Position numbers and translations under genes: made by a program
Notes under the pieces: model-generated
Told to the model about the DNA's origin: nothing
Database searches by the model: none
What the model saw: the letters and a program-made list of their open reading frames with translations, nothing else
Shown here: one piece after another, positions 1-16,187 of the stretch
Position numbering within the stretch: the stretch's first letter is position 1
Layout: each line of letters starts with the position of its first letter
Assembly (NCBI RefSeq): GCF_020171625.1
Contig: NZ_JAIUZY010000003.1
Span: 124,001-188,000, forward strand
Length of the DNA stretch: 64,000 bases
Reading direction: 5' to 3'
From: Salipiger bermudensis
GTDB taxonomy: Bacteria; Pseudomonadota; Alphaproteobacteria; Rhodobacterales; Rhodobacteraceae

Positions 1-2073
1 CTGGATCAGCTCATCGCGCAGGCCGTTGGAGTAATACGGCAATTCGCTCTCGGAGCTTTTCGGATCGAGGAACTTGTTGGGCTGGTTGGTGCCCTTGTCG
101 ACCGCCGGACAGCCCAGCTCGGTGAAGCGGATTGGCTTGGAGCCGGGCACCCAGCCGGTCGGCTCGGGCTGACGCACGCCGCCGATGCGCTCGTGGTGGG
201 CGTTGTCCCACCAGCCGCGGATGTCCTTGTAGCGGAACACCCAAGGCTCGTGATGCGCGCCATCGGTGATCGGCTCGCGGCGCTGCGCGTCGCGCGCCTG
301 CGGGGACGGGTAATACCAGTCAAAGCCCTCGCCCCCCGCCACGTTGGCCATCAGGTAACCCGGATCGTAGACCGCCCCCCACGCGGCATCGGCATGGTCC
401 GTCCCATCGCGCCAGTCCGACAGCGGCATGTAGTTGTCGATGCCGATGAAATCGATCTCATCGTCGGCCCACAGCGGATCGAGATGGAAATATACGTCGC
501 CCGTGCCGTCCTGCGGCTGGTAGCCGAAATACTCCGACCAGTCGGCGGCATAGCTGAGCTTGACCTCCGGCCCCAGCAGTGTCCGGCACTCCGCCGCTAA
601 GGCCCGCAGCGCCGCCACCGCCGGGAAGCCGCTCGCGCCCCGGATCCATGTCAGGCTGCGCATCTCCGAGCCGATGCAGAACGCCTCCACGCCCCCGGCG
701 GCGGCACAGAGCGCCGCGTGGTGCAGGATGAAGCGGCGATAGCTCCACTCCTCGGGACCGCTATAGGTCACCTCGCCATCCCCAACCGTGAAATCGGAGG
801 CCTGCGCCGCTCCGAAGAACGCCGCCACCTGCGCCTCGGCGGCCGCGCTGCCGTCGGGCGTGCCGGGCCGCCCCGGTGCCACGTCGAGCGTGATGCGCCC
901 CCGCCATGGCAGCTCCGGCTGGTCCTCGGCATCGCTCCATGGGTCCGGCAGGCCGTTGCCCGCCATCTGGTCCATCAGGATGAACGGGTAGACCAGCACG
1001 TCGAGCCCCTGAGCCACCATGCGGCGGATCGCCTGAATCACCGAAGCGTCGCAGGGCGTGCCGCCATAGACCGGGCGGCCCTCGAGCGTGGGCACCGCCT
1101 CCGCCGTGTCGCGCGTGGCGCCGCAGACCTGCCATGGCATATTCTTCGACTCGTATTTCGTCTGCTCGACCTTCGGACGGATCTCGCAGCTCCCGCACCG
1201 CAGGTCGCCGCCGAACCAGCTCACCACGAGCGAGACCGCGCCGCAGTTCGGCACCTCCTCGGTGAGCTGGTCGAGAGAGACGTTGAAATCGGGTGCTTCC
1301 GCCGGGCTGTTGACGTTATGCAGGCCCGAGCCGTTCTCGGAATAGCTCATATGGACCGGCTCGGTGGCCAGAGCGTATTCCCCGGTGCCCGGGATCATCG
1401 CCACGCCGCGGATGATGTGGGGCACGTCCTCTGGATCGTCCTGCACCGGGCGGGTGACCTCGAAGCTCAGCTGGGGCACCCGGTTGCCATAGCGCTCGAG
1501 GGCCATGTCCTCGATCACCACGTAGGCGGTGCCGCGATAGGCCGGCACCTGCCCGACCCCCTCGACCGCCTCGATCGTTGGGTCGGGAAGCTGGTCCATG
1601 CTGCCGGTATAGACCCGCATGTTGAGATCCCCCACCGGGATCTCGGCACCATCGGCCCAGACCCGGTTGACGCTGGTGATCTCGCCCTCGCAAAGCGCCA
1701 GAGCAAGGCTCAGGGAGTAGCTGTAGCGCTCCACCGTCTGGCTGGGTCCGCCACCGCCCTTGCCGCCGCCGCCGACCCTGTCCCTGTCGACCCGCTCGCG
1801 GAACTCGGTGGCCCAGATCACCTGCCCGCCAAGCCTCATCCGCCCGTAGGCCTGCGGGATCGCCGCGCCTTCGCCGGCGCCGCTGAGGAAGAAACGGTCG
1901 ATGCGCCCGGTCTCGACGGTCTCCGAGCCCTGCCCCATGAGCCGCTGGTCGAGCGCGCGACCGAGGCTGGCGCCGATGAACCGGCCTACCGCGGTCATCG
2001 AGAGCCCCAGAACCGAGCCGCCGATGGCACTGCCCACGGCGGCGCCCACGGCGGAAAAGACGAGTGTCGCCAT
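1..2073 (-). CDS. GTA g15 megatron / baseplate tail-fibre protein (3' end outside window)
   Basis: The frame is open from an ATG at 2073 to the left edge with no stop, about 691 codons. The gene is therefore cut at its C-terminal end; family members run to roughly 1,300 residues. An AAGGAG ribosome site precedes the start, and the start overlaps the g14 stop by one base (TGATG). The N-terminus is small-residue rich, like phage tail proteins. The last third in view has the look of the GTA TIM-barrel domain (FIGIDNYMPL, ITDGAHHEPW, RFTELGCPAV). In the RcGTA particle this protein closes the baseplate hub and carries the host-contacting fibre part. It is the last conserved gene of the structural operon. 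Identity is well supported by domain look and gene order. Confidence 0.9.
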   Translation of the reverse strand, partial: MATLVFSAVGAAVGSAIGGSVLGLSMTAVGRFIGASLGRALDQRLMGQGSETVETGRIDRFFLSGAGEGAAIPQAYGRMRLGGQVIWATEFRERVDRDRVGGGGKGGGGPSQTVERYSYSLSLALALCEGEITSVNRVWADGAEIPVGDLNMRVYTGSMDQLPDPTIEAVEGVGQVPAYRGTAYVVIEDMALERYGNRVPQLSFEVTRPVQDDPEDVPHIIRGVAMIPGTGEYALATEPVHMSYSENGSGLHNVNSPAEAPDFNVSLDQLTEEVPNCGAVSLVVSWFGGDLRCGSCEIRPKVEQTKYESKNMPWQVCGATRDTAEAVPTLEGRPVYGGTPCDASVIQAIRRMVAQGLDVLVYPFILMDQMAGNGLPDPWSDAEDQPELPWRGRITLDVAPGRPGTPDGSAAAEAQVAAFFGAAQASDFTVGDGEVTYSGPEEWSYRRFILHHAALCAAAGGVEAFCIGSEMRSLTWIRGASGFPAVAALRALAAECRTLLGPEVKLSYAADWSEYFGYQPQDGTGDVYFHLDPLWADDEIDFIGIDNYMPLSDWRDGTDHADAAWGAVYDPGYLMANVAGGEGFDWYYPSPQARDAQRREPITDGAHHEPWVFRYKDIRGWWDNAHHERIGGVRQPEPTGWVPGSKPIRFTELGCPAVDKGTNQPNKFLDPKSSESELPYYSNGLRDELIQ

Positions 2074-2510
2074 CAGCTTGCTCCTTCGGGAAACGCAAAG
2101 CGCGCCACCAGCCGGCGGCGCCAGGGCCGGCTCAGCCGGCTTTCGACCACGCCGTGGCCGCTATATGCATGAACAAAACTGGCCGCCGCGCCAAGCCCGG
2201 CCTGCAGCCCCAGATGCTTGGCCACCGCGCCGTCGCGCATTCGGAACAGCAGCACATCGCCCGGCGCCTCGGCCCCGAGCGGCTTGCGCGCCATGTGGCG
2301 CAATGCGGCGGCCAGAAGGGCCTCCTCGCCCTGCGGCTCGGACCAGTCGCGGGAATAGGCGGGCACCGCTTCGGGTTCCGGCCCGATCACCTCGCGCCAG
2401 ACCCCGCGCACGAGGCCGAGGCAATCGCACCCCGCCCCGCGCAGCGAGGCCTGATGACGGTAGGGCGTGCCGATCCAGCCCCGCGCCGCTTCCACGATCA
2501 ACGCGCTCAT
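2073..2510 (-). CDS. GTA g14 NlpC/P60-type cell-wall peptidase
   Basis: 145 residues. The motif GCDCLGLV places the likely catalytic cysteine at C30, and KHLGLQ gives the partner histidine at H99, as in phage-associated NlpC/P60 peptidases. It probably cuts peptidoglycan peptides so the tail can deliver DNA, and sits in the tail baseplate. The ATG at 2510 overlaps the g13 stop (ATGA), and the stop overlaps the g15 start. This tight coupling argues for translation as part of the GTA tail block. A longer upstream reading in the same frame is only a shadow of g13. Confidence 0.92.
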   Translation of the reverse strand: MSALIVEAARGWIGTPYRHQASLRGAGCDCLGLVRGVWREVIGPEPEAVPAYSRDWSEPQGEEALLAAALRHMARKPLGAEAPGDVLLFRMRDGAVAKHLGLQAGLGAAASFVHAYSGHGVVESRLSRPWRRRLVARFAFPEGAS

Positions 2511-3388
2511 CGCCGGCTCCCCCCGCTTCTGGACTTGGCGCGGGTTGGGTGCACCAGCATCCAGTCCTCTTCGGGAATGTCGGGAAAGCCCTGGTAGTTG
2601 AGCACGTTGTTGAACTTCAGCCGGCAGGTCTCGAGCCGCTTGTCGCAGCCCGCCTCGAGCCGCACCAGATCGCCCGCCGCAAGCGCCGCGCCCAGCGGGT
2701 GCCAAAGCTCGATCCGCCGCCCCTCGGCGCTGAGACGGTCACGCTTGATCGCCCCCGTCAGTCCCTGCGCCGCGCCGCTCAGCACCACCAGACGCCCGCG
2801 CTGGAACCAGCCCGCCTCGAAGCCGGTCAGCGCGCCAAAGAGCAGCGCGCGGTTGTCCTCCACCTGCACCGCAGCGCCCTCGTGAGAATAGCCCGGCGCT
2901 TCGAGATTGACGCGGCAGCGCCCGTCTCCCAGCACCGCCGTGCACGGCGCCTGATAGACGCGCCCCAGAGGTCGGTTCAGCGCCTCGGTCAGGCCGCGCA
3001 GCTCGGCGTGAAAGGCCCCGCCCGCGCGACGGATCTCGCCGATCGAGCCGCGGAACAGCACCCGGCGCTGGCTCACATCCTGCCAGTTCACCAGCCAGCA
3101 GACGACCTCGGCGCCGTCGAAGCGCCCGGCCTCGATATCGGCCTCTGAGAGTACGTCGTCGCGCAGCGCGCCCATCGCCTCGGAATTGTCGACCGAAAGC
3201 CCCGTGGCCTGCTGCAGCGTCTTGGCGCTGAGCCCGGTATCGGCGCGAAAGCTCAGCCCGGCGAACGCGAGATCCCGGTCGTGGTCGGTGAACCCGAGCG
3301 AGACGCCATCGGCCCGCGTGACGGCCCAGCACCGCGCGACGGTGCCAAGCCCGCCGGCGAGATGCGCATGTAGCTCCGCCGCCCCCAT
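2507..3388 (-). CDS. GTA g13 baseplate hub protein (DUF2163 / BR0599-like)
   Basis: 293 residues, the usual length for this GTA/phage family. The N-terminal half resembles the DUF2163 domain and the C-terminal part the BR0599-type domain, with conserved cysteines in CDKRLETCRLKFNN near the end, a typical signature. In RcGTA this is the hub between the distal tail protein and the megatron. The start ATG shares one base with the g12 stop, and the stop overlaps the g14 start by 4 nt. No signal peptide or membrane segment is present. Confidence 0.9.
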   Translation of the reverse strand: MGAAELHAHLAGGLGTVARCWAVTRADGVSLGFTDHDRDLAFAGLSFRADTGLSAKTLQQATGLSVDNSEAMGALRDDVLSEADIEAGRFDGAEVVCWLVNWQDVSQRRVLFRGSIGEIRRAGGAFHAELRGLTEALNRPLGRVYQAPCTAVLGDGRCRVNLEAPGYSHEGAAVQVEDNRALLFGALTGFEAGWFQRGRLVVLSGAAQGLTGAIKRDRLSAEGRRIELWHPLGAALAAGDLVRLEAGCDKRLETCRLKFNNVLNYQGFPDIPEEDWMLVHPTRAKSRSGGSRR

Positions 3389-4020
3389 CAGACCCGCACC
3401 TCGACCACCGGCACGTCGGGCGCCTGCCCGGCCTGAAAGCTGGCGACGCTCACGTTGATGCGCTCGGTATCGAAGCGCACCGGCACGTCGAACTCGTAGC
3501 CCGCGGTGATCTCGACACCCGAAAGCGGCGGGTCGGTGAAGGTGATGATGCCCGTGGTCAGGTCGAGCGTGAAATGCACGCCCTCGCGCATCTCGACATC
3601 CTGCACGGCGGCGATCACCGTGCCAGCAACCGGCTTGGTGATCGGGCGGGCATAGCTGGCCCCGCCGGATCGGTAGACCTTGACCAGCTGGAAGCTCCGC
3701 GTCGCTCCGTCACCCCGCGCGATCACCTGGTCGCCCGGGCTCACGCTGCCAGAAGGCCGGCAGGAGCGGTAATCGGCCCAGTCCTTCCAGCGAAACCCGT
3801 AAAGCTGGCCGTGCCGCGCCTCGAAAAACGCCAGCAGCTGCTCGATATCGTCGAGCCCGCGCAGCCCCAGCCCCGCATCATAGCGCCGACGCGAATGCGC
3901 CCAGGGGCTGTTGCGCTCCTCGAAGCCACTGCTCAGCTCGACCACGTCCGTGCGCCGCTCAGGGCCACCCAGCGCGCCGAAGCTCAGGTCGGCGGGAAAT
4001 CTCACCTCGTGGAAACTCAT
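3388..4020 (-). CDS. GTA g12 distal tail protein (DUF2460)
   Basis: 210 residues beginning MSFHEVRFP, the conserved opening of the DUF2460 phage/GTA family. A SRRRYDAG motif follows near residue 43, and the WKDWADYR stretch is characteristic. The protein forms the distal ring of the tail tube onto which the baseplate hub assembles. There is a 10-nt gap from the g11 stop and a one-base overlap with g13. Family assignment is firm; function is by homology to the RcGTA particle. Confidence 0.9.
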   Translation of the reverse strand: MSFHEVRFPADLSFGALGGPERRTDVVELSSGFEERNSPWAHSRRRYDAGLGLRGLDDIEQLLAFFEARHGQLYGFRWKDWADYRSCRPSGSVSPGDQVIARGDGATRSFQLVKVYRSGGASYARPITKPVAGTVIAAVQDVEMREGVHFTLDLTTGIITFTDPPLSGVEITAGYEFDVPVRFDTERINVSVASFQAGQAPDVPVVEVRV

Positions 4021-4030
4021 GCTCTTCTCC

Positions 4031-4693
4031 TCAGCGGTTGCGCAGGCCCTGCCCCAGTGCGCGGCTCATCTGCGCCGCGATCTGCGACTGGCTGCGGCGG
4101 AAGCCCTGCACGTCTGGCGTGGTGATGTTCATCACCACCATCGGCGGCTGCTGCGCGGCGCTGGCGCGCACCCCGAGCCGCCCGTCCGGCCCGCGGGACA
4201 GCGGCATGATCGCCTCGGGCCCGGCCTCGCCCATGAGTCCGGTGCCGCCCCGCATCGGGAAGGCCACCGGCCCGCTCACCACCCCGCCCGAGGCAAACGG
4301 CATCACCTTGCCCTGCGCGAAGGCCCCGCCGTGGGCGAAGGGCGACATCGCGCCGAACACCCCGGCCATGCTGCCGGCGATCAGACCGCCCAGATGATCC
4401 GACACCGGTCGCACCGCCGCGCGGTAGGCCGCGTCCACCATCGAGCGCGCGACGACGCCCAGCGCGTCCGACAGCTTCATCCCGTCGAGGATCACCCCGT
4501 CGATGGCCCGCCCCAGCCCGGAGCTCAGCGACCGCTCGAGCCGTGTCACGCTGCCCCCGGTCGCCGAAAACGTCTGGTGAATGCGCTTGAGCTCAGCATC
4601 GAACCCCGCCGCCATGGCGCTGGCCGAGCCGAGGCTCGCTTCCAGCGCCGCGATATCGCCGTCGAGATCGCCCATCTCGCCAAACTCGGTCAT
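4031..4693 (-). CDS. GTA g11 short tail tape-measure protein
   Basis: 220 residues. The N-terminal 60 residues are helical. The centre is glycine and alanine rich (LIAGSMAGVFGAM), and the C-terminal half has the phage tape-measure signature GEAGPEAIMPL with FAHGGAF and FASGGVV blocks. Tape-measure proteins set tail length and later help DNA pass the envelope. The short length fits the short RcGTA tail. The start overlaps the g10.1 stop by 4 nt (ATGA). Confidence 0.92.
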   Translation of the reverse strand: MTEFGEMGDLDGDIAALEASLGSASAMAAGFDAELKRIHQTFSATGGSVTRLERSLSSGLGRAIDGVILDGMKLSDALGVVARSMVDAAYRAAVRPVSDHLGGLIAGSMAGVFGAMSPFAHGGAFAQGKVMPFASGGVVSGPVAFPMRGGTGLMGEAGPEAIMPLSRGPDGRLGVRASAAQQPPMVVMNITTPDVQGFRRSQSQIAAQMSRALGQGLRNR

Positions 4694-4890
4694 TGCCGAT
4701 CCCCTTTCACCTCGTCCGGGAAGGCGGCGAGCAGTTCCTCGAGCCGCGCCCGTCCCATTGGCCTCGCGGCGCTGTCACCGCCCAGCACCAGCCGCAGCTC
4801 CGCCGGGGTCAGCGCCCAGAACTCGCCCGGCCTCAGCCCCAGCCCGCGCAGCCCGGCGCGCATCAGAGCCGGCCAGTCAAAGCGCTCCAT
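4690..4890 (-). CDS. GTA g10.1 tail assembly chaperone (small, TAC-6-like)
   Basis: 66 residues, opening MERFDWPALMRAG with the LRPGEFWALTPAEL motif typical of the small phage tail-assembly-chaperone family next to GTA g10. It probably coats the tape measure during tail assembly. The ATG shares a base with the g10 stop, and its own stop overlaps the g11 start. This is the same arrangement in which phages make paired chaperone proteins. No slippery frameshift site was recognised between g10 and g10.1. Confidence 0.85.
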   Translation of the reverse strand: MERFDWPALMRAGLRGLGLRPGEFWALTPAELRLVLGGDSAARPMGRARLEELLAAFPDEVKGDRQ

Positions 4891-5210
4891 CAGCCCTCCT
4901 CCGGCAGCATGAAGGCCCGCGCCAGGAGCTCTGCGGCCGCCCGCGCCGCGACCATCGGCCCGCCCTCGATCTCGGCGTGCAGCAGATCCGCCGCCGAGCC
5001 GTCCCAGCCGCCACCGCGAAGCCCGGCCACGATCAGCGCCAGCACGTCGCGGGTACTGCAGCGCCCCTCCTCGAAGCGCTGCGCCAGCGCCACCAGCGTG
5101 TCGTCGCCAAGGCTCGCTTCAAGCTCGGCGAGCGCCCCCAGCGTCAGCCGCATCACCCTGCGCTCACCATCGAGCGTCAACGCCACCTCACCGCGCCACG
5201 GGTTCGCCAT
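4890..5210 (-). CDS. GTA g10 tail assembly chaperone-like protein
   Basis: 106 residues beginning MANPWRGEVALTLDG, the conserved start of the GTA gp10 family. LGALAELEASLGDD follows. It is predicted to act with g10.1 as chaperone for the tape-measure protein. The start ATG overlaps the g9 stop by one base. No signal peptide or membrane helix is seen. The assignment rests on the sequence opening and on position between the tail tube and tape-measure genes. Confidence 0.88.
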   Translation of the reverse strand: MANPWRGEVALTLDGERRVMRLTLGALAELEASLGDDTLVALAQRFEEGRCSTRDVLALIVAGLRGGGWDGSAADLLHAEIEGGPMVAARAAAELLARAFMLPEEG

Positions 5211-5632
5211 CAGACCACCGGCACCGGCACGAAGCTCAGCGCCCCCGCCGAGGCCAACGAGACCTCGTAGGTGGCCTCGCCATTGTGGCTGCCGGCATAT
5301 TCGATGGCGGTGACCTGAAAGGCCCCCTCGACGGTGCCGAAATCCGGGATCACCACCTGGAAGGCCGGCGTGTCGCCATCGAAGAAGATCTGCCGCGCGC
5401 GCTCGTCGGTGGCCTGATCCTTGAACACCCCCGAGCCCGAGATATTGGCGGATTTCACCCCGGCCCCCGCCAGCAGTTCGCGCCAGCCGCCCTGGCTCTC
5501 CAACGTGGTGACATCGACGCTCTCGGCGTTGAAGCTCACCCGCGTGGCGCGCAGCCCCGCCATGGTCTCGAACTGGCCGTCGCCGGTCAGATCCACCTTG
5601 ACCAAAAGGTCCTTGCCGTTCTGGGCACCCAT
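5210..5632 (-). CDS. GTA g9 major tail tube protein (TP901-1 family)
   Basis: 140 residues, starting MGAQNGKDLLVKVD. The motifs LRATRVSFNAESVDVTT and GVFKDQATDERAR are classic for the TP901-1-type major tail protein. It polymerises into the tail tube. The start at 5632 is preferred over an in-frame codon at 5671 because AAGGAG lies just upstream and the family begins with MGAQ. A 66-nt gap separates it from the g8 stop, the only real gap in the tail block, so this gene may have its own translation boost. Confidence 0.93.
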   Translation of the reverse strand: MGAQNGKDLLVKVDLTGDGQFETMAGLRATRVSFNAESVDVTTLESQGGWRELLAGAGVKSANISGSGVFKDQATDERARQIFFDGDTPAFQVVIPDFGTVEGAFQVTAIEYAGSHNGEATYEVSLASAGALSFVPVPVV

Positions 5633-5698
5633 CTGTCTTGCTCCTTGCTGATCGGCGGAAGCCTCCGCCACGTGTCACTGGCCGGTCTGGCCGGCGCC

Positions 5699-6103
5699 TC
5701 ACGCGTCCTCGACGCGGGCGCGGAAGATCATGTCGATGCGCCTCAGCCCGCCGCTCTCGCGCCGCGCCCGGGCGCGCCGGAAGCGCAGGCTCACCAGGCG
5801 CCCCCGCGTCAACGCCAGCGGCGCATCGTCGAGCGCATCGCTCGCCGCCGCCGCCTCCTTGGCCGACTGAAATCCTGCCGCGTCGCTGACCACCGCAAGC
5901 GTCAGATCGTGCCAGGCGCCATGCCCGTCCGCATCGGAGGCATCGCGCACCGTCTCGGCCCCGAGCGTCATGTAGAGCCCCGGCAGCGGCCCGGCGGGCG
6001 GCGCATCGTAGATATGGCCCCCCACCAGCGCCTCGAGCGCCGCGTCCCCGGCCAGCCTCTGGTAGATCGCGCTCTGAAGCGCCGCCGACATCGCATAGCT
6101 CAT
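5699..6103 (-). CDS. GTA g8 tail terminator (DUF3168)
   Basis: 134 residues of the DUF3168 family: MSYAMSAALQSAIY at the start, ALVGGHIYDAPP near residue 28, and a basic C-terminus with LRFRRARARR. In the RcGTA particle this is the tail terminator ring, closing the tube at the head side. The ATG at 6103 has GAGGAGG seven bases upstream and overlaps the g7 stop by 4 nt. Confidence 0.9.
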   Translation of the reverse strand: MSYAMSAALQSAIYQRLAGDAALEALVGGHIYDAPPAGPLPGLYMTLGAETVRDASDADGHGAWHDLTLAVVSDAAGFQSAKEAAAASDALDDAPLALTRGRLVSLRFRRARARRESGGLRRIDMIFRARVEDA

Positions 6104-6438
6104 GCCGCCACCTCCTCGCGTGCTTCGCAGGTGAGATAGAGCCCGCCGGGCTCGGCCTCGGTCACCGCCACGATGCGGAAGAGCCGTGTCTGCTGGCGAA
6201 ATCTCTGCCCCGGCAGCGGCCGGTTCGAGGCCCCGAGCGGCGCGCCGCGCACGATGATGCGGAACGCGCGCACCGACAGCGCGCCCGCCTCGCCGGTCGC
6301 CTCGCGTCCGGTCTTGGGCCGGATCTCGGCCCACAGCGTGCCCATGGCGACCCAGCTCTCGATCTGGCCACCGGCCCCATCGGGCGCCACCACCGGCGCC
6401 TCGAGCACCAGCCTGCGGTTCAGAAGCGGAATGCTCAT
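6100..6438 (-). CDS. GTA g7 head-tail stopper (SPP1 gp16-like adaptor)
   Basis: 112 residues. It opens MSIPLLNRRLVLEAP and carries WVAMGTLWAEIRP, a hallmark of the phage head-tail joining family. It forms the stopper ring below the portal/adaptor and keeps DNA in the head. The start overlaps the g6 stop by 4 nt and the stop overlaps g8. Longer readings in this frame extend into g6 and g5 territory and are not real. Confidence 0.9.
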   Translation of the reverse strand: MSIPLLNRRLVLEAPVVAPDGAGGQIESWVAMGTLWAEIRPKTGREATGEAGALSVRAFRIIVRGAPLGASNRPLPGQRFRQQTRLFRIVAVTEAEPGGLYLTCEAREEVAA

Positions 6439-7028
6439 GCGCCGAACCCCACGCGAAGCGGGCGGTAGCGCGCGATCAGCGAGGTCACGCCAAACGGCAT
6501 ACAGCCCTGCCCAAGCTCCGTCGCCTCGCGATAGGCGTAGTAATGCGCCGCCAGCATCAAAACCGCCTGCGCGAGGTCTGCCGGAAGATCGTCGAACGCC
6601 GCGCCGTACCCGGCGCTGAAGCGGATCTCCGCCGCGCCGCCCTCGGGCAGCGTCGGCAGTGCGGCTCCCTGCGCGCGGAGCCGCGGCACCTGGTCGTCCT
6701 GCTCGAGCCGGTAGGCGCTCGCCGGGACAGTCTCGGCGGCGCCGAAGCGGTCGATCACCGCGACCCCGGTGACCGCCCTCACCGGTGCGATCGGAAATCG
6801 CTCGGCCTGCGCATCGCGCCAGCCGTGCAGCGTCCAGACGAAGCCGCGGGCCATCAATGCTTTGCCGGTGCGCGCCTCGATCGCCGCCAGCGCCGCGCGC
6901 AGGAACGAGCCCAGCACCGCGTCCTGCAGGTCGTCCTCGGCGAAACCGGTGCCGAGCCGCAGGTGCCGCCTCAGCGCAGCGACCGGCAGCGCCGCCTCGG
7001 GCAGCTGGGATTCTTCGATCAACATCAT
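6435..7028 (-). CDS. GTA g6 head-tail adaptor (phiE125 gp8-like)
   Basis: 197 residues. Conserved stretches include LRRHLRLGTGFAEDDLQD, IEARTGKAL and LAQAVLMLAAHYYAYRE, as in phage connector proteins. Two ATGs lie in tandem (7028 and 7025), with GGAGAAG upstream; the first is used here. About 150 nt of noncoding DNA separate it from the capsid gene. This gap holds a GC-rich hairpin at about 7057-7072, which could reduce read-through so that capsid is made in excess over connector proteins (inference). Confidence 0.9.
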   Translation of the reverse strand: MMLIEESQLPEAALPVAALRRHLRLGTGFAEDDLQDAVLGSFLRAALAAIEARTGKALMARGFVWTLHGWRDAQAERFPIAPVRAVTGVAVIDRFGAAETVPASAYRLEQDDQVPRLRAQGAALPTLPEGGAAEIRFSAGYGAAFDDLPADLAQAVLMLAAHYYAYREATELGQGCMPFGVTSLIARYRPLRVGFGA

Positions 7029-7178
7029 CGTTCTTCTCCGCAAACCTCTCCGGGCCGCCCGCCCGAGCGGGCGCGCACCGCGTGCGTTGCTCGGACGGAG
7101 GGAGCAGCTGACAACACACGCTCCCGGCACGCGCCCCACGCGGGCGACCTGCGGCCGCCCCCGCGTCTCCTGGCCGGA

Positions 7179-8360
7179 TCAGGCCGTGTCGCAGCGCAGC
7201 AGCTTGATCGCCGCGAAATCGCTCACGTCGCCGCCCACGCGCTTCGTGGCGTAGAACAGCACATGCGGCTTGGCGCTGAACGGGTCGCGCAGAACCCGCA
7301 GGTCGGGGCGCTCGGCGATGGTGTAGCCGGCCGAGAAATCCCCGAAGGCGATGGCATCGGTGCCGCTGCCGATATCCGGCATGTCCTCGGCGATCAGCAC
7401 CGGGTAGCCCAGAAGGCGCGCCGGCTCCGCCGCCGCCAGACCGTCCGACCACAGGTGCCGCCCGTCGCCATCCTTGAGCTTGCGCAGCGCGCCCGCGGTC
7501 TTCGAGTTCATCACGAAGCTCGCGCGCGCCCGGTACTCGGCCCCCAGCGCGTAAACCAGATCGATGATGGCGTCGCCATCGCCGATGCCGCCATCGACCC
7601 CGCTCGGCACATAACCGAGATTGCCCCATGTCCAGACCGCGTTGTCGATCGCATCGTGATCGAGGAACCCGCGCGGCTTGTCGACGCCGTCCCCCAACAC
7701 GAAGGCCGCCGCCTCGGCACGGGCGAACCTGTCGGCGATGCGCCCGGCGAGCCACATCTCGAGGTCGAAGGCGCTGTCGTCGAGCAGCCGCTGGCTCGCC
7801 TTCGGCATCGCCGAAAGCTCGTGCAGCTTGATCGCGATGCGGTCGATGGTGGGCGTGCCGGTCTCCGACGAGGCGGCGGTCTCGTCCGCCCAGCCCGCGC
7901 CGGTCTCGCCCTGATCGATCAGCACGTCGTAGGAGGTTGCCTCCACCGTCACCACGCTGGCGATGGCGCGGATCGAGGCGGTGCTGTCGAGCACCGATTT
8001 CACCGTCTCCGAGGTCGCCGGATCGACCAGATAGCCGCCATCGCCGGCCACCCCGGTCGACAGCGCCTTACCCTCGAGCACGAGGCCGCGCAGCCCGTCG
8101 TCGTCACCGGTGCGGAGATAAGCATCGAAGGCCTCCCGGTGCGGCGCGCCGGTGTCCGCCGTGGTGGCCAGAGCCGGGCGTCCGCGCGGCGTTGCGTGTT
8201 TCGCGTTAAGCATGGTCAGTCGCTCTTCCTGTTGTTGCATCTTCAGCTCAAGGTCGCCCCGCAGGGCCTTGATATCGCCCACAAGCCCCGCAATGGCGGC
8301 GCCGACGCGGGTGGCCGGATGGCCGTCCCCGGCCCGGGAGACGTTGCCGGTGTTGGTCAT
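7179..8360 (-). CDS. GTA g5 major capsid protein (HK97 fold)
   Basis: 393 residues, close to the roughly 400 of the RcGTA capsid. Residues 20-55 are helical and charged (DIKALRGDLELKMQQQEERL) and form the delta or scaffolding region removed by the g4 protease. The mature HK97-like part begins in the YLRTGDDD/GGYLVDPATS region. PRGFLDHDAID and SFVMNSKTAGALRKLKD are family signatures. The ATG at 8360 has AGGAACGGGA upstream. It is the most abundant particle protein, and its separation from g4 and g6 by noncoding gaps suits separate tuning. Confidence 0.95.
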   Translation of the reverse strand: MTNTGNVSRAGDGHPATRVGAAIAGLVGDIKALRGDLELKMQQQEERLTMLNAKHATPRGRPALATTADTGAPHREAFDAYLRTGDDDGLRGLVLEGKALSTGVAGDGGYLVDPATSETVKSVLDSTASIRAIASVVTVEATSYDVLIDQGETGAGWADETAASSETGTPTIDRIAIKLHELSAMPKASQRLLDDSAFDLEMWLAGRIADRFARAEAAAFVLGDGVDKPRGFLDHDAIDNAVWTWGNLGYVPSGVDGGIGDGDAIIDLVYALGAEYRARASFVMNSKTAGALRKLKDGDGRHLWSDGLAAAEPARLLGYPVLIAEDMPDIGSGTDAIAFGDFSAGYTIAERPDLRVLRDPFSAKPHVLFYATKRVGGDVSDFAAIKLLRCDTA

Positions 8361-8389
8361 GGTCTCGATCCCGTTCCTGATCGGCGCGC

Positions 8390-8932
8390 TCAGCTGCGCG
8401 CCAGGTCCCGGCGCGCGCCCTCGAGCGCCTGCGCCAGCTCGTCCATCGCGGCCTCCTCGGGGCGTGAGCCCTTGGCCGCGACCCGTGCGCTGGGAAGCAT
8501 CGGGAAGGTCACCAGCGAGACCTCCCAGAGCTCCAGCTCGGTCAGGAGCCTGCGCCCCGTGCCGTCCTTCGTGGCGCGCAGGGTGCGGTAGCCGATCGAC
8601 AGCCCGTCGATGGCACCGGCGGCGATCAGCGCCGCGGCCTCGCGGCCGCGCGCGACCGTGTCGAGCAGCCGGCCCGTCACGTGCAGGCCGCGCGTGTCTT
8701 CGTGCACCTCGTCCCAGGTGCCGATGGGCTGCGCCGGATCGTGCTGCCACAGCATCTTCACCGCGCGGCCCTCGGCCGCCAGCCGCTTCAGCGAGGCCGC
8801 ATAGGCCCCCGCCGCCACCACGTCTCCGCCCTGATCGCAGGCCCCGAACAACGAGGCATAGCCCGCGATCCGCGCGCCCTCGCTCAGGGTCACGCCGGTG
8901 TCGAAGCGACAGAACTTGTGCTCCAGATCCAT
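8390..8932 (-). CDS. GTA g4 prohead protease (HK97 family)
   Basis: 180 residues starting MDLEHKF. The family's catalytic histidine is H64 in WQHDPAQPIG and the serine is S112 in IDGLSIGYR. It processes the capsid delta domain during head maturation. The start at 8932 is chosen because it has AAAGGAA upstream and gives the canonical N-terminus. The ALEGARRDLARS tail is charged and helical. Confidence 0.92.
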   Translation of the reverse strand: MDLEHKFCRFDTGVTLSEGARIAGYASLFGACDQGGDVVAAGAYAASLKRLAAEGRAVKMLWQHDPAQPIGTWDEVHEDTRGLHVTGRLLDTVARGREAAALIAAGAIDGLSIGYRTLRATKDGTGRRLLTELELWEVSLVTFPMLPSARVAAKGSRPEEAAMDELAQALEGARRDLARS

Positions 8933-8967
8933 TCCCGTTCCTTTCCCGATTGCCCCCGACCACCCGC

Positions 8968-9201
8968 TCAGGGGGTCGCCACGATCACGCTCTCGAACGC
9001 CTGCGCGAGGATCACCCCGGCCACGCCGTAGACCGCCAGCCACAGGCGCCGCTCGAGCCTCTCGAGCAGCAGCTCCAGCCGATCGAGCCGCGCGTTCAGC
9101 GCATCGACCTGCAGCCGGCTCATCTGCTCATGCGCCTCGAGCTTCAGCGCCGGCGCGCAGGCGAAGGGTTCGTAATCCAGCCTGCGATCACTCACCGGCA
9201 T
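8968..9201 (-). CDS. GTA g3.5 small head-formation protein (rcc01685-like)
   Basis: 77 residues: an N-terminal segment, a coiled coil at about 25-52 (LDRLELLLERLERR) and one hydrophobic helix at about 53-75. This matches the small protein found between portal and protease genes in RcGTA-type clusters and described as needed for head formation. It overlaps the end of g3 by 14 nt. ATG 9201 is used; a GTG six bases further in, better spaced from GGAGGGAG, is an alternative start. Its molecular role is unknown. Confidence 0.75.
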   Translation of the reverse strand: MPVSDRRLDYEPFACAPALKLEAHEQMSRLQVDALNARLDRLELLLERLERRLWLAVYGVAGVILAQAFESVIVATP

Positions 9202-10387
9202 CTCCCTCCGGCGCATCCCGAAGCTCCGGCAGTCCCAGCATCCGGCGCTTCTCCGCGGCGGTGAGGAACTCGGCGCCAGCGACCCGCGCCCACTGCGCGT
9301 CGCGCTCGGCGGCCAGCGCCGGCACCTGGTCGAGATCGGGCATCAGCGCGACCTCCTCTCCCAGATGCGAGGCCAGCCACCGCCCCACCGCCGCCGTCAC
9401 CCGTGTCGCCAGAGGCAGCACGGTGAGCCGGTAGAAGGCGCGGTGCGCCTCCTGGTAATTTGCAAAGGTCGCCTCGCCGGGAATGCCCAGCAGCATCGGC
9501 GGCACCCCGAAGGCCACCGCGATCTCGCGCGCCGCCGCCTCCTTGGTCTTCTGGAACTCCATGTCGGACGGCGAAAACCCCATCGGCTTCCAGTCCAGCC
9601 CGCCCTCGAGCAGCATCGGCCGCCCGGCGTTGCGCGCGCCCTGGTGCAACAGTTCCATCTCGTCGCGCAGGCGCTGGAACTGATCCGCCGCCATGCCGCC
9701 CTGCCCGTCGCCCCCGGTCCAGACGATGGCGCCGGAGGGCCGCGCCGCGTTGTCCAGCAGTGATTTCGACCAGCGGCTGGCGCTGTTGTGCACGTCCACC
9801 GCCTGCGCCGCCGCCTGCACCGGCGACAGCCCGTAATGGTCATCCTGCGGGTGGAACGCCTTGATGTGACAAATGGGTGAGGCCCGCTCGCTCACCTCGA
9901 ACCGGTGCCGGCGCGCGTCGACCATGTAGTCATAGGCCACCGGCCAGCCATCCGGCCCCGGCACCAGCCGCATCCGGTCCGAGCGCAGCACGTGCAACTC
10001 CGCCGGCAGCCGTCCCGCGCCCGGCACCGCCTCGACATAGGCGTCGCCCGACAGCAGCAGGTGACCGTAAAGCGCCTCGAAAAGCTCCGCCTTGCCCTGC
10101 GCCGGGTTGGGCGCCGTCACGAGCGACAGAAGCGGGTGCTGCGCGAAGCGCTGCTCGGCGTCCTGCAGCACCAGTGGCAGCGCCGCGGCGGCCTCGGCGA
10201 TCAGCTTCACCGCCCGGAACCCCACCGGGTTGCCGCTGAAGCCCGAGCGCGTCAGCGAACCGCCCTCGCGCGGGCTCCAAGCCACGCGCCCCGCCCCCGC
10301 ATAGGCCATCAGCGGCCCCGTGGCCGAGGCCTTGGCCTCGGTCTCCACCGCCGCCTCGCGATCCCTGCGCAGAAAATCGAACACCAT
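9188..10387 (-). CDS. GTA g3 portal protein (HK97 family)
   Basis: 399 residues. Conserved portal motifs are SGNPVGFRAVKLIAEA, HLLLSGDAYVE, DDHYGLSPVQAAAQ and GVPPMLLGIPGEATFANYQEA. The protein forms the dodecameric DNA entry ring and the docking site for terminase. ATG 10387 begins the usual MVFDFLRR N-terminus; a TTG six codons upstream is possible. Unlike the usual g2-g3 contact, the region upstream is occupied by an opposite-strand gene. Portal and all later genes therefore depend on read-through from the g1 promoter or on an unidentified promoter. Confidence 0.94.
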   Translation of the reverse strand: MVFDFLRRDREAAVETEAKASATGPLMAYAGAGRVAWSPREGGSLTRSGFSGNPVGFRAVKLIAEAAAALPLVLQDAEQRFAQHPLLSLVTAPNPAQGKAELFEALYGHLLLSGDAYVEAVPGAGRLPAELHVLRSDRMRLVPGPDGWPVAYDYMVDARRHRFEVSERASPICHIKAFHPQDDHYGLSPVQAAAQAVDVHNSASRWSKSLLDNAARPSGAIVWTGGDGQGGMAADQFQRLRDEMELLHQGARNAGRPMLLEGGLDWKPMGFSPSDMEFQKTKEAAAREIAVAFGVPPMLLGIPGEATFANYQEAHRAFYRLTVLPLATRVTAAVGRWLASHLGEEVALMPDLDQVPALAAERDAQWARVAGAEFLTAAEKRRMLGLPELRDAPEGDAGE

Positions 10388-10630
10388 CGCTCGCCGCACC
10401 TTCAACCCGTTCCGGTTCGAACCGCCGGGTCCGCATCGCGTTGAGGAAGGACACTATGAACGAGAGATTAAGCACCTCTGGCGGCTCCGCACGGCCAACT
10501 CGCAACGGCCCCCGATGGGTCAAGGCTGCTATGCGTCCAGCGCACTGGCGCTCCACGCCGCGTCTCTGTAGTCTCCGCCAGCACGACAGAATGCTGCGTG
10601 AGGACCAATGAAATTGTACGGAAGTTCCGA

Positions 10631-11113
10631 ATGATCACCGAGACGACACAGACCACTCTGCGCCCGCTCCTGGCCGATGATGCCGCCACCGTGGCCGAGA
10701 TCTTCCGCGACGCCGTGCTCAACGGCACCACAGCCCACTACACCGAAGCTGAACGTGAAGCCTGGGCCGGGCCCAAGCCCGACCCCGAGCGCTGGCGCGA
10801 CCGCGTCGGCAGCTCGGTCGGACTGATGGCCGAGCGCGACGGCACGCCGGTCGGCCTGATGACGCTCGTCGCACCGAGCCATATCGACCTCGCCTTCGTG
10901 CGCCCCTCCGCCGCCGGTCAGGGCATCGGGGCCGAGCTTCTCGCGGCGCTGACGCAGATCGCCCGCGCCAGCGGCGCGCGCGAGCTGACCGCCGATGCCA
11001 GCAAGGCCGCGCGCCCTTTCTTCGAGCGCCACGGCTTCACTTGGCTGCGCCAGAAAACCGTCATCCGCCGCGGCGTGGAGCTGATCACGAACGAGATGCG
11101 AAAGCCGCTCTAA
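10631..11113 (+). CDS. GNAT-family N-acetyltransferase inserted in the GTA operon
   Basis: 160 residues with the GNAT fold. The acetyl-CoA loop is VRPSAAGQGIG (90-100), followed by a helix and the C-terminal ARPFFERHGF block. The substrate is unknown; the sequence resembles small phosphinothricin/amino-acid-type or protein acetyltransferases. It lies on the plus strand between terminase and portal genes, which both run the other way, so the GTA transcript would be antisense to it. ATG 10631 (GGAAG upstream) is preferred over GTG 10598. Composition does not look foreign. Confidence 0.85.
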   Translation: MITETTQTTLRPLLADDAATVAEIFRDAVLNGTTAHYTEAEREAWAGPKPDPERWRDRVGSSVGLMAERDGTPVGLMTLVAPSHIDLAFVRPSAAGQGIGAELLAALTQIARASGARELTADASKAARPFFERHGFTWLRQKTVIRRGVELITNEMRKPL

Positions 11114-11135
11114 GCACTGAGCGGCCCGAGGCCGC

Positions 11136-12473
11136 TCAGAGCACCCGCAGCGCTGGCCGCCGCCAGCCCTGCATCGGCGTCACGATCAGCTCGGTCAGCG
11201 CCCAGACCAGCGCATCCACCCGGTCAGGCGAGCCCTGCCCGGCAAAGCCCGAGACCGTCATCAGCCCCATCTGCTCCTCGAGCGTGTCGAGCGCGCCGCA
11301 ATGCGCCACCCGGCCCTGTTCGTAGAGCGCCGCCACAGGCTCTGCCCGCGCCGCCTTGCCGCGGGTGGCGTGCACCTTGCGCAGTGGCACTTGCGGCGCC
11401 ACCTGCCGCAGCACCGTCTCGACCATCGCGCCGCCCTGATTGACCTCGGCCACCACCCGGTCGGCCTGCCAGCGCCCATAGGCCGCGGCCACCGCCTCGG
11501 CCCAGGCGGTGGGAGAGACGCCCTGCACGCTGGCATCCTCCAGCACCCACGCCCGCCACGCCTGCGGCGGTCCCTCGCAGACCGCCCCTGCCACCACGAT
11601 CCCGCAGGCATCCGCAGCCCGTCCCTCGCCCGCCGGCGGGTCGACGGCCACCACGAACCGCTCGGGCAGCTCCGCGCCGCGCGCCCGCTCCAGCACCGCC
11701 TGCGTCCAGAGCGTGCCGTCCACGTCGGTCACGAGCACCCCGTCCAGCTCCTGCCGCGCCAGCCGCGTGTTGCCGTATCGCGCCCGTACCTCCCGCAGGA
11801 ACGACGCCGCGAGGTTGGCCCGGTTGGCCTCGGTCTTCGCGTGGGTGACCACGGTGCTCTCAAGCTCGAGAAGCTCCTTCAGCACGCCCACGTTGCGCGG
11901 CGTGGTGGTGACGCAGACCTGCGGCCGCTCCCCCAGCCGCAGCGCGAATTGCAGCATGTCCCAGGTCTCGCGCGCCTTCTTCCACTTTGCCAGCTCGTCG
12001 ACCCACGCGGCATCGAATTGCGGCCCGCGCAGCCCCTCCGGGTCGTGCGCCGAGAACACCATCGCCTCGGCGCCGTTGGGCCAGACCAGGCACCTCCGCC
12101 CGGCGTGCCAGTCGGGCCGCCGGTCGGGCGGCGAACAGGCGAGGATGCCGCTTTCGCCGAACACCATCACCTCGCGCACCTGATCGAGCGTCTCGCCCAC
12201 CAGCGCCACCCGCCGGCAGCGCCCGGGCGACAGCGGTAACGCGCCCTCGACGCAGGCGCGCACCCATTCCGCCCCGGCCCGGGTCTTGCCCGCACCGCGC
12301 CCGCCCATGATGACCCACGCGCGCCAGTCGTCCTCGGGCGGCAACTGGTGCGGAATGGCCCAGAACTCGAAAAGAAAGGGGAGTGCCAGGCACTCCCCCT
12401 CGGTCAGCTCACTCAGGAAGCTCTCCCGCACCGCAGCAGCGGCGCAGGCGAGCCATGCGGCACCCGATCTCAT
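11136..12473 (-). CDS. GTA g2 terminase large subunit (ATPase/nuclease)
   Basis: 445 residues from ATG 12473. The Walker A is GGRGAGKT (57-64) and the Walker B AAWVDE (155-160). The C-terminal nuclease half starts with VVAVDPPAGEG and includes VVAEVNQGG. It packages host DNA fragments headful-style into GTA heads. The start is uncertain: the gene overlaps the g1 3' end by 65 nt here, and an in-frame ATG at 12536 (GGAGG thirteen bases upstream) would add 21 residues not typical for the family. Only 22 nt separate its stop from the converging GNAT stop. Confidence 0.94.
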   Translation of the reverse strand: MRSGAAWLACAAAAVRESFLSELTEGECLALPFLFEFWAIPHQLPPEDDWRAWVIMGGRGAGKTRAGAEWVRACVEGALPLSPGRCRRVALVGETLDQVREVMVFGESGILACSPPDRRPDWHAGRRCLVWPNGAEAMVFSAHDPEGLRGPQFDAAWVDELAKWKKARETWDMLQFALRLGERPQVCVTTTPRNVGVLKELLELESTVVTHAKTEANRANLAASFLREVRARYGNTRLARQELDGVLVTDVDGTLWTQAVLERARGAELPERFVVAVDPPAGEGRAADACGIVVAGAVCEGPPQAWRAWVLEDASVQGVSPTAWAEAVAAAYGRWQADRVVAEVNQGGAMVETVLRQVAPQVPLRKVHATRGKAARAEPVAALYEQGRVAHCGALDTLEEQMGLMTVSGFAGQGSPDRVDALVWALTELIVTPMQGWRRPALRVL

Positions 12474-12750
12474 CGCGCGCCCGTTCGAGATCGAGAGCCC
12501 AGTCTCCCGCAAGGCCTTTCTGTTTTCGTCTGACATTGGCGATCTGCGCCTCCGTTTCGTGCGACGCCCTCATCCAGTAGCGGACATCGCTCATCAGCTT
12601 GCCCGCGTCGGTCTTCGACACCGCCTTCCCGTCTTCGATCTGCGCCTTGAGGCGTCTTATGTCCGCGCCGAGGTCCCGCAGGACGTCGGCGATGCGGTCG
12701 CGCTCGTCTTCGAGTCGCGACATCTCCTCTTCGAGGTGGACCAGGATCAT
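12409..12750 (-). CDS. GTA g1 small terminase-like protein
   Basis: 113 residues. The N-terminal half is a long charged helix or coiled coil (EEMSRLEDERDRIADVLRDL), followed by SDVRYWMRASHETEAQI and a cysteine-containing tail. This fits g1, the first GTA gene, thought to be the small terminase subunit. ATG 12750 has AAGAAAGG upstream. It is followed without a gap by g2. The leader upstream carries the operon promoter at 12869-12897. Confidence 0.82.
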   Translation of the reverse strand: MILVHLEEEMSRLEDERDRIADVLRDLGADIRRLKAQIEDGKAVSKTDAGKLMSDVRYWMRASHETEAQIANVRRKQKGLAGDWALDLERARDEIGCRMARLRRCCGAGELPE

Positions 12751-12808
12751 GCTCGATACCTTTCTTGCCTGTAGGTCTCCGCCCGAGGCAGCCAAACGCA
12801 CAACGCAA

Positions 12809-12826
12809 GAAAGCCCCGCGGGGGCC
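12809..12826 (-). promoter_or_regulatory. Terminator-like hairpin in the GTA leader
   Basis: On the minus strand a GC-rich stem (GCCCC...GGGGC, 12813-12825) is followed directly by TTTCTT (12812 downwards), 37 nt downstream of the promoter and about 60 nt before g1. It looks like a small intrinsic terminator and could act as an attenuator. A second GC stretch just upstream can pair alternatively. Confidence 0.4.
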
Positions 12827-12868
12827 TGTCCCCGGGGGCCGTGTGCGCGGCTTGTCCAGCATGTCTGA

Positions 12869-12897
12869 AAGTTACGCCCAAGCGCGCGGTGGGTCAA
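12869..12897 (-). promoter_or_regulatory. Promoter of the GTA structural operon
   Basis: A minus-strand -35 TTGACC (12897-12892) and -10 TAACTT (12874-12869) are separated by exactly 17 nt. Transcription would begin near 12862, giving a leader of about 112 nt to g1. RcGTA expression is known to depend on CtrA and the GafA activator; no CtrA half-site pair was recognised here. Confidence 0.6.
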
Positions 12898-12965
12898 GTT
12901 TCCGCACCGAACGCCGCCCCGCAAGCGCTTGTTAACGCTTGATGATAGCGCCGCGCCAAGGGCAA

Positions 12966-13000
12966 AGAAAAAGGGCGCGGCACCGTCAGGTGCCGCGCCC
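12966..13000 (-). terminator. Intrinsic terminator of pntAB
   Basis: A perfect 12-bp stem (12973-12984 with 12989-13000), four-base loop and a U-rich run (TTTTTCT on the minus strand) lie 40 nt after the pntB stop. Confidence 0.9.
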
Positions 13001-13041
13001 GCGGGACAGACCCTGCCGGGTCCGTCGATCAAGTGACGCCG

Positions 13042-14469
13042 TCAGTCGAGCCGGGTCAGAAGATCGCCCACCGATGCCTTGGCGTCGCCATAGAACATGC
13101 GGGTGTTGTCCTTGTAGAACAGCGGGTTCTCGATGCCCGAGTAGCCGGTGCCCTGACCGCGCTTCGACACGAAGACCTGCTTCGCCTTCCACACTTCCAG
13201 AACCGGCATACCGGCGATCGGCGAGTTCGGGTCTTCCTGTGCCGCCGGGTTCACGATGTCGTTCGAGCCGATTACGATGACCACGTCGGTCTCCGGGAAG
13301 TCCTCGTTGATCTCGTCCATCTCGAGCACGATGTCGTAGGGCACCTTGGCCTCGGCCAGCAGCACGTTCATGTGCCCGGGCAGACGGCCGGCGACGGGGT
13401 GGATCGCGAAGCGAACCTCCTTGCCCTTGGCGCGCAGCTTGCGGGTCAGTTCGGCCACGTTCTGCTGGGCCTGCGCCACCGCCATGCCGTAGCCCGGCAC
13501 GATGATGATGCTGTCGGCCTCGTCGAGCGCCGTCGACACGCCGTCGGCGTCGATTGCCACCTGTTCGCCCTCGATCTCCGCAGCCGGACCGGCGGTGCCG
13601 CCGAAGCCGCCAAGGATCACCGAGATGAACGAGCGGTTCATCGCCTTGCACATGATGTAGGACAGGATGGCGCCCGAAGAACCGACCAGCGCACCGACCA
13701 CGATGAGCAGGTCATTGCCCAGCGAGAAGCCGATCGCCGCCGCGGCCCAGCCCGAGTAGCTGTTGAGCATCGACACCACCACCGGCATGTCGGCGCCGCC
13801 GATGCCCATGATCAGGTGATAGCCGATGAATAGCGCGCAGAGCGTCATCAGGAACAGCGGGAAGAAGCCGCCGGTGCCCATGTACCAGAACAGGCAGAGC
13901 AGCGAGATCGCCGCCGCCGCCGCGTTCAGCAGGTGCCCGCCGGGCAGCTTCTTGGCCGCCGAGCTCACCTTGCCGGCGAGCTTGCCATAGGCGATGACCG
14001 AGCCGGTGAAGGTGATGGCGCCGATGAACACGCCAAGGAACAGCTCGACCGACAGGATGCTGAGCTCGACCGGCGCCTTGTGGGCCACCAGTTCCGCGAA
14101 GGCGCCATGCGCCTCGGCGGCATCCGGGCCGGTCACGGCCTTCATGGTGAAGTGCGCGTTGTAGCCCACGAACACCGCAGCCAGACCGACAAGGCTGTGC
14201 ATCGCCGCGACAAGCTGCGGCATCTCGGTCATCTCGACCTTCTTGGCGACGTAGATGCCGATGATGCCACCCGCCGCGATCAGGATGATCGACAGCAGCC
14301 AGAGGCCCGAGCCGGGCCCGATCAGCGTCGCGAACACCGCCAGCGCCATGCCGACGATGCCGTACCAGACGGCGCGTTTCGCGCTCTCCTGCCCCGAAAG
14401 GCCGCCGAGCGAGAGGATGAAGAGGACAGCCGCGACCACATAGGCCGCCGTGGTGAATCCGAATTCCAT
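13042..14469 (-). CDS. pntB: NAD(P) transhydrogenase subunit beta
   Basis: 475 residues: an N-terminal membrane domain of about eight or nine helices ([17 protein letters not shown] onwards), then the NADP-binding domain III from about residue 300. That domain carries [32 protein letters not shown] and [10 protein letters not shown]. With PntA it couples hydride transfer from NADH to NADP+ to proton entry, supplying NADPH in the inner membrane. It begins 15 nt after pntA and is followed by a strong terminator, so the two form a simple operon. Confidence 0.97.
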
Positions 14470-14484
14470 GTCTTTGGCCTCCCC

Positions 14485-16059
14485 TTACGACTTCTGGAAC
14501 ATGGCGAGCATACGCCGTGTGACCATGAACCCGCCGAAGATGTTGATGCCGGCCATGAAGACCGAGACGGCGGCGAGGAGGATCACCAGCCACGAACCCG
14601 AGCCGATCTGCATCAGCGCGCCGAGGATGATGATCGAGGAGATGGCGTTGGTGACGGCCATCAGCGGGGTGTGCAGCGAGTGGCTGACGTTCCAGATGAC
14701 CTGGAAGCCGACAAAGACCGACAGCACGAACACGATGAAGTGCTGCATGAAGCTCGCGGGCGCCACGAGGCCTACCGCCAGCAGCAGCACGCCGCCGATG
14801 CCCAGCAGGGTGACCTGCTGCTTGGTCTGCGCCTTAAACGCCGCGGTCTCTGCCGCGCGCTTCTCTTCCGGCGTCAGTTCCGGGGCCTTCTCCTTCGGCT
14901 TCTGCGCCGCGATTGCCTTGGTCTTCGGCGGCGGCGGCGGCCATGTCACGTCATGCTTGTGCGCGATGGTCGCGCCGCGGATGACGTCATCCTCCATGTT
15001 GTGATTGACCGTGCCGTCCTTCTCGGGCGTCAGGTCGGTCATCATGTGGCGGATGTTGGTGGCGTAGAGGCTCGAGGACTGCGTCGCCATCCGCGAGGGG
15101 AAGTCGGTGTAGCCGACGATGGTCACGCCGTTGTCGGTGACGATCTTCTCGTCCTTGACGGTGAGCTTGCAGTTGCCGCCCTTCTCCGCCGCGAGGTCGA
15201 TGATCACCGAGCCGCGCTTCATCGCCGCAACCATGTCCGGCGTCCACAGCTCGGGCGCCTCGCGGTTGGGGATCAGCGCCGTGGTGATGACGATGTCCAT
15301 CTCGGGCGCCAGCTCACGGAACTTGGCCAGCTGCGCTTCGCGGAATTCCGGCGAGGAGACAGAGGCATAGCCGCCCGAGCTCGAGCCGTCGGCCTGTTCT
15401 TCCTCGAAGTCGAGATAGACGAACTCGGCGCCCATGGACTCGACCTGTTCCGCCACTTCCGGACGCACGTCGAACGCATAGGTGATGGCGCCCAGCGAGG
15501 TGGCGGTGCCGATGGCGGCGAGACCGGCCACACCGGCACCGACGATCAGCACCTTGGCGGGCGGCACCTTGCCGGCGGCGGTCACCTGACCGGTGAAGAA
15601 GCGGCCGAAATTGTTGCCCGCTTCGATCACCGCGCGGTAGCCCGCGATGTTGGCCATCGAGCTCAGCGCGTCCATCTTCTGGGCGCGGCTGATGCGCGGC
15701 ACCATGTCCATGGCGATGACGCTGGCGCCCTTGTCGGCCGCCTCTTTCATCAGCGTTTCGTTCTGGGCCGGCCAGAAGAACGAGATCAGGGTCTTGTCGG
15801 CGCTCAGGCGTCCGACTTCCTCATCGCTGGGCGGTTGCACCTTGGCAATGATGTCGGCCTGGGACCAGAGCGCGTCCGGGCCGTCGACGACGGCGACGCC
15901 GGCCTCTTCATAGGCCGCGTCGGCAAAGCCTGCCTTCACGCCGGCGCCCGTCTCGATGACGCAGTCATAGCCCAGCTTCTGAAGCTGCAGCGCCGAGTCC
16001 GGCGTCATGGCTACCCGGTTTTCTCCTGCCGCCAACTCCTTTGGCGTTCCGATCTTCAC
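14485..16059 (-). CDS. pntA: NAD(P) transhydrogenase subunit alpha (single chain)
   Basis: 524 residues from a GTG at 16059, preceded by AAGGGGG. That start gives the canonical MKIGTPKE opening, so an upstream in-frame ATG at 16107 is rejected. The NAD-binding domain has the GAGVAG turn at 174-179. A proline- and lysine-rich linker (residues about 375-415) leads to four C-terminal membrane helices. In many alphaproteobacteria the alpha subunit is split in two; here it is one chain. It is the first gene of pntAB. Confidence 0.96.
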
Positions 16060-16187
16060 GTCTTGGATCCCCCTTGGTTCCTGAAGTCTTGTTTTACGTA
16101 GCGGCACATGCCGTATGCCCCGGGTCTATCGTGCAGACACGCGGCTCACAATGTCATCGCAATGGTTAATCACATTCAACCACGAAA

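Follow-up and report, generated by a model that had tools for sequence, protein, structure and literature searches.

A plus-strand GNAT gene at the terminase-portal junction of a Salipiger GTA cluster: a probable passenger at a proposed transcription boundary

Why does a Salipiger bermudensis GTA cluster, whose genes otherwise run on one strand, carry an acetyltransferase gene in the opposite orientation between its terminase and portal genes? In the window (the whole 64,000-nucleotide stretch analyzed here), the GTA cluster that an earlier note on this DNA had placed at bases 1-12750 of the minus strand is an RcGTA-type structural cluster adjoining the pntAB transhydrogenase genes, with TerL, portal, protease, capsid, tail and GTA_TIM genes ordered on a single strand. 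Gene order and families match those of the Rhodobacterales RcGTA (g1-g15), including terminase, portal, protease, capsid, gp10, DUF2460 and GTA_TIM, and the rest of the cluster is likewise GTA-like (prohead protease, HK97-type capsid, head completion, gp17, GTA gp10, DUF2460, NlpC/P60 and GTA_TIM). The difference lies at the g2/g3 junction, where a plus-strand GNAT gene splits g1-g2 from g3-g15, again as that note described, and where the gap is 748 bp, against a family median of about 125 bp. The features of the junction are:

9188..10387, minus strand: g3, portal protein, 399 aa, ATG at 10387 (PF04860)
10631..11113, plus strand: GNAT N-acetyltransferase gene, ORF of 160 aa (Pfam and conservation)
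11136..12536, minus strand: g2, terminase large subunit (TerL), 466 aa (PF03237/PF17289)
12409..12750, minus strand: g1, terminase small subunit by position, 113 aa (position and conservation only)

The g1 ORF overlaps g2. From the GNAT start to the g3 ATG we measured 243 bp, in agreement with the approximately 240 bp of upstream DNA given earlier, and the convergent GNAT and g2 stops are 22 bp apart. A G+C-rich perfect hairpin with a 10-bp stem, and with no T-run, lies at 11117..11139, across both the stop of g2 and the 22-bp gap. We consider the GNAT gene real because 11 other Salipiger species encode, at the corresponding position, proteins 62-89% identical to the window protein.

The 160-aa product is, as judged from its domain matches, a generic GNAT acetyltransferase. 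It matches Pfam Acetyltransf_10 (PF13673; E 2.4e-17, 63.5 bits against a cut-off of 23.6) as well as PF00583 (54 bits against 20.7), both above the gathering score, and all 12 orthologues retain a glycine-rich G-x-G loop, which reads GQGIG in the window. The best NCBIfam model is NF007338 (PRK09831, which we take to correspond to E. coli YafP), with an E-value of 1.5e-23; since its 83.5 bits fall below the curated cut-off of 146, the protein was not assigned to that equivalog, unlike the YafP-like members of the family. The best solved relative is PDB 2FIW (E 7e-26), an uncharacterized GNAT, and similarity to both the YafP-like proteins and 2FIW covers the full length. A simple SOS-box scan upstream of the GNAT gene gave no match.

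Our preferred reading, to which we give a probability of roughly 0.7, is that GNAT is a chromosomal passenger gained once at a natural transcription boundary, with g3-g15 keeping their own control region. The gene would have entered the DNA between g2 and the g3 control region in the ancestor of one Salipiger group, at a junction that may tolerate insertion because g1-g2 transcription would end there and g3-g15 would be under a conserved control region of their own. Placed between the end of g2 and the block described below, the insertion would leave the g3 control region intact directly upstream of g3, so that both halves of the cluster would have kept their signals. GNAT itself would probably be transcribed from its own promoter and acetylate a small molecule or protein unrelated to the GTA. 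A passenger was one of the options raised in the earlier note, and it is favored by the confinement of the gene to one Salipiger lineage, by the generic nature of the protein and by the presence of unrelated genes at the same junction in other genera.

To place this junction in the family, we used a survey of about one genome per genus, comprising 132 non-Salipiger genomes with TerL and portal on one contig and the same strand. Gaps were taken from match coordinates rather than curated gene ends, and only genomes with listed matches were used. The g2-g3 gap exceeds 400 bp in six of the 132 genomes, five of which contain genes in the gap: an SDR gene in one; genes for an aldehyde dehydrogenase and a GntR regulator in another; for a LuxR regulator, an ABC transporter and an SDR in a third; and, in the last two, for a membrane protein and a lipoprotein-like ORF, respectively, both named by eye and with no Pfam match.

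The portal-to-capsid interval (g3-g5), which served as a control, spans 848-1263 bp in 123 genomes with no length outlier. Six long gaps against none in the control are suggestive of an insertion hotspot at the g2-g3 junction, short of proof. The idea that most GTA clusters might carry the same GNAT at this position fails across the family, where none of the 132 other genera has a GNAT at the junction; within Salipiger it holds for 12 of 20 species.

Upstream of g3, we found sequence that is conserved irrespective of the insertion. Three features bear on control of the two halves of the cluster:

10451..10506, minus strand: conserved g3-upstream block, candidate promoter or control region (alignment of 20 Salipiger)
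10487..10496, no strand assigned: weak copy (6.1 bits) of the CG-NN-CGGT palindrome (g1-promoter matrix)
12869..12897, minus strand: g1 (main GTA) promoter, TTGACC ... ACCGCGCGCT ... TAACTT (comparison of g1 promoters)

When the 260 bp before g3 were aligned across the 20 Salipiger species, GTTGC and TTAA proved invariant and TAG nearly so; in the window the parts are GTTGC (10506-10502), TTAAT (10471-10467) and TAGTGT (10456-10451), and the block is present in species both with and without GNAT. The g1 promoters are laid out differently: TTGAC is followed by a spacer that contains the CG-NN-CGGT palindrome, and then by a TA-rich -10, so that the palindrome-like element sits between -35 and -10. 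This element is common to the g1 promoter and to the DNA upstream of g3; its window copy at g3 is weak, and in most relatives it is stronger at the matching position, about -102 to -109 from the g3 ATG. The best matrix matches fall there in 15 of the 20 Salipiger species, with modest scores, and enrichment within Salipiger alone is modest among species that are not independent.

In other genera, among 60 g2-g3 gaps of about 102-270 bp, picked by length and not at random, the strict palindrome ACCGNNCGGT occurs in 10, against 0.2 in shuffles. A matrix trained only on g1 spacer sites and then run over these gaps scored at least 8 in 27 of the 60, compared with 7.9 in shuffled (maximum 12) and 6.8 in column-permuted controls (maximum 14), the matrix being not fully independent as 20 other-genus g1 leaders were picked after the g3 regions had been viewed. 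In four genomes with other inserts (G130, G206, G074 and the Salipiger genome G014), the element stands downstream of the insert, at -96 to -106 from g3, and several genomes with other inserts retain a block similar to that of Salipiger beside g3; no clear element adjoining g3 was found in G093, G080 and G196. We infer that the g3-upstream block would act as a promoter controlled by GafA, the GTA activator, which in R. capsulatus binds the g1 promoter region (PMC6363796, PMC9638019). The earlier statement that g3 has no clear promoter is not supported, as a conserved candidate is present before g3 in all Salipiger and recurs in other genera. The TTGACC near 10520 that had been considered as a g3 -35 lacks conservation, even between the window and its two closest relatives. 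In the window, no consensus -35 precedes g3, and scans for a consensus sigma-70 promoter around 10300-13100 gave none. The pattern CGNNCGGTGC-N-TAGNNT, searched over the species' own genome, gave five matches, none at g1 or g3, and was set aside as uninformative because these are fewer than in the reversed control.

The strongest competing explanation is one long transcript, in which polymerase modified by GafA at g1 would antiterminate across the g2-GNAT boundary into g3-g15; the insertion would then be tolerated because the modified polymerase ignores terminators and not because g3 has a promoter. We rate such a transcript, and the antisense RNA that would then be made over the GNAT gene, at somewhat under even odds. 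Its best precedent is Caulobacter crescentus, where GafZ, a homologue of the C-terminal portion of GafA, acts as an antiterminator: it binds a palindrome located between the -35 and -10 elements and allows a terminator just after terL to be bypassed (PMC11150451). The Caulobacter cluster (CcGTA, controlled by GafY/GafZ) resembles the Rhodobacterales clusters in that the palindrome of its first promoter has the same placement as in Rhodobacterales g1, and in that its terL-portal interval is a transcriptional boundary, as proposed here for g2-g3, with a terminator after gtaT, and likewise holds extra genes, gtaQS (PMC11150451). In the Rhodobacterales, an intrinsic-terminator-like hairpin was found in 25 of 32 g1 leaders, compared with 3.3 in shuffles (the window leader is 12750-12869, minus strand, between the GTA promoter and g1), and its combination with the palindrome in the promoter spacer resembles the layout of Q-type antitermination. 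A single long transcript, however, leaves unexplained both the g3-upstream block with its copy of the same palindrome and the position of most insertions upstream of that block. CcGTA also differs here, as it has one promoter with a single upstream TSS and its terL-portal IHF sites are dispensable, compared with the separate conserved element before g3 in Salipiger, which is seen as sequence only (PMC11150451). Control of g3 from its own region and antitermination from g1 are compatible, and both may act together.

Extended from Salipiger to the order, the passenger reading would divide Rhodobacterales GTA clusters into two transcription units, one of g1-g2 and one of g3-g15, both having a GafA-type operator and separated by a recurrent landing site for host genes, a generalization that we regard as tentative and close to an even bet. 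GTA production is usually described as beginning at one promoter before g1; an element before g3 that is common to the g1 promoter and kept despite upstream insertions predicts a second control point. If the cluster does consist of two units, the stoichiometry of terminase to structural proteins could be set separately, and the cluster could carry passengers with its function retained. The passenger gene is ordinary in itself, yet it exposes the g2/g3 boundary. We found no report of a conserved g3 element shared with the g1 promoter in the open-access literature, and no published test of GafA at g3.

TerL is present in all 20 Salipiger species, and 12 of these, including that of the window, have GNAT at the same junction and in the same orientation, with a g2-g3 gap of 732-785 bp. 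These carrier counts rest on the wider genome survey, a search reaching close relatives only having returned the S. bermudensis copy alone; the protein of S. bermudensis HTCC2601 is 89% identical to the window copy. The remaining eight species lack GNAT at the junction, and in six of them the gap is 252-305 bp. Of the other two, G014 has a 4.3-kb ABC-transporter operon in the junction, and G016 has a gap of 187 bp, a broken portal gene and, at another place in its genome, a 49% GNAT relative. The operon in G014 is complete and lies on the GTA strand (L077, 4412-8606). In G016 (L079, 4559-6695), only about 168 aa of the portal are left before the sequence continues into an ORF resembling the cluster end; the cluster of this species has apparently collapsed by deletion.

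Single-gene trees with moderate supports place the 12 carriers in one group (portal; support 88/76) and the eight non-carriers in another (TerL; 83/90). Against outside relatives the junction GNATs form a single clade (99/99), and their tree repeats close groups of the GTA genes (G002 with G011, G006 with G012, and G000 with G018 and G019). From these trees, a single gain of GNAT in the common ancestor of one Salipiger group, followed by apparently vertical inheritance, is most likely, although a single loss in the GNAT-free group fits the trees nearly as well. Pairwise dN/dS for close pairs is 0.05-0.35 for GNAT compared with 0.03-0.20 for terL and portal, indicating purifying selection on GNAT, with looser constraint than on its GTA neighbors. 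No sign of a mobile origin was found among plasmid and phage records: plasmid relatives are below 60% identity (best matches 32-38%), and only two phage records matched, at 28-29%.

That the gene has not moved while 12 species diverged, and is under purifying selection, speaks for an accessory recruited to modify proteins of the GTA or the host while particles are made or cells lyse. We nevertheless consider such a role unlikely, given its antisense orientation, its looser constraint than that of GTA genes and its generic protein, whose outside relatives (47-49% identity, in G016, G020 and G023) occur in unrelated host contexts, with no GTA families seen among the neighbors tested. GNAT is also not a conserved member of the RcGTA cluster, as GTA clusters without it at the junction occur in eight Salipiger species and 132 other genera, which leaves the earlier suggestions of modified GTA proteins and of mutually exclusive expression without support. 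The latter, a small toggle driven by convergent transcription, is in our view very improbable: the genes are indeed convergent, with 3-62 bp between stops among carriers, but the g1-g3 arrangement is kept in GNAT-free relatives, a G+C-rich hairpin stands between the stops in about nine of the 12 carriers (weak or absent in G003, G007 and G019), and a search for a conserved toggle-specific regulatory site found none.

Other differences were noted among the carriers. Eleven of the 12 carriers have pntB (13042-16107, minus strand, in the window) upstream of g1, where it was not found in carrier G007 or in any GNAT-free Salipiger, indicating that the GTA neighborhood has changed within the carrier group. 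In G012 (C6, 155851-157270), TerL is in two frames, split near residue 268 by a frameshift or an assembly error, and G018 (C7, 30056-31318) has a second, diverged TerL with 49% identity and one in-frame TGA.
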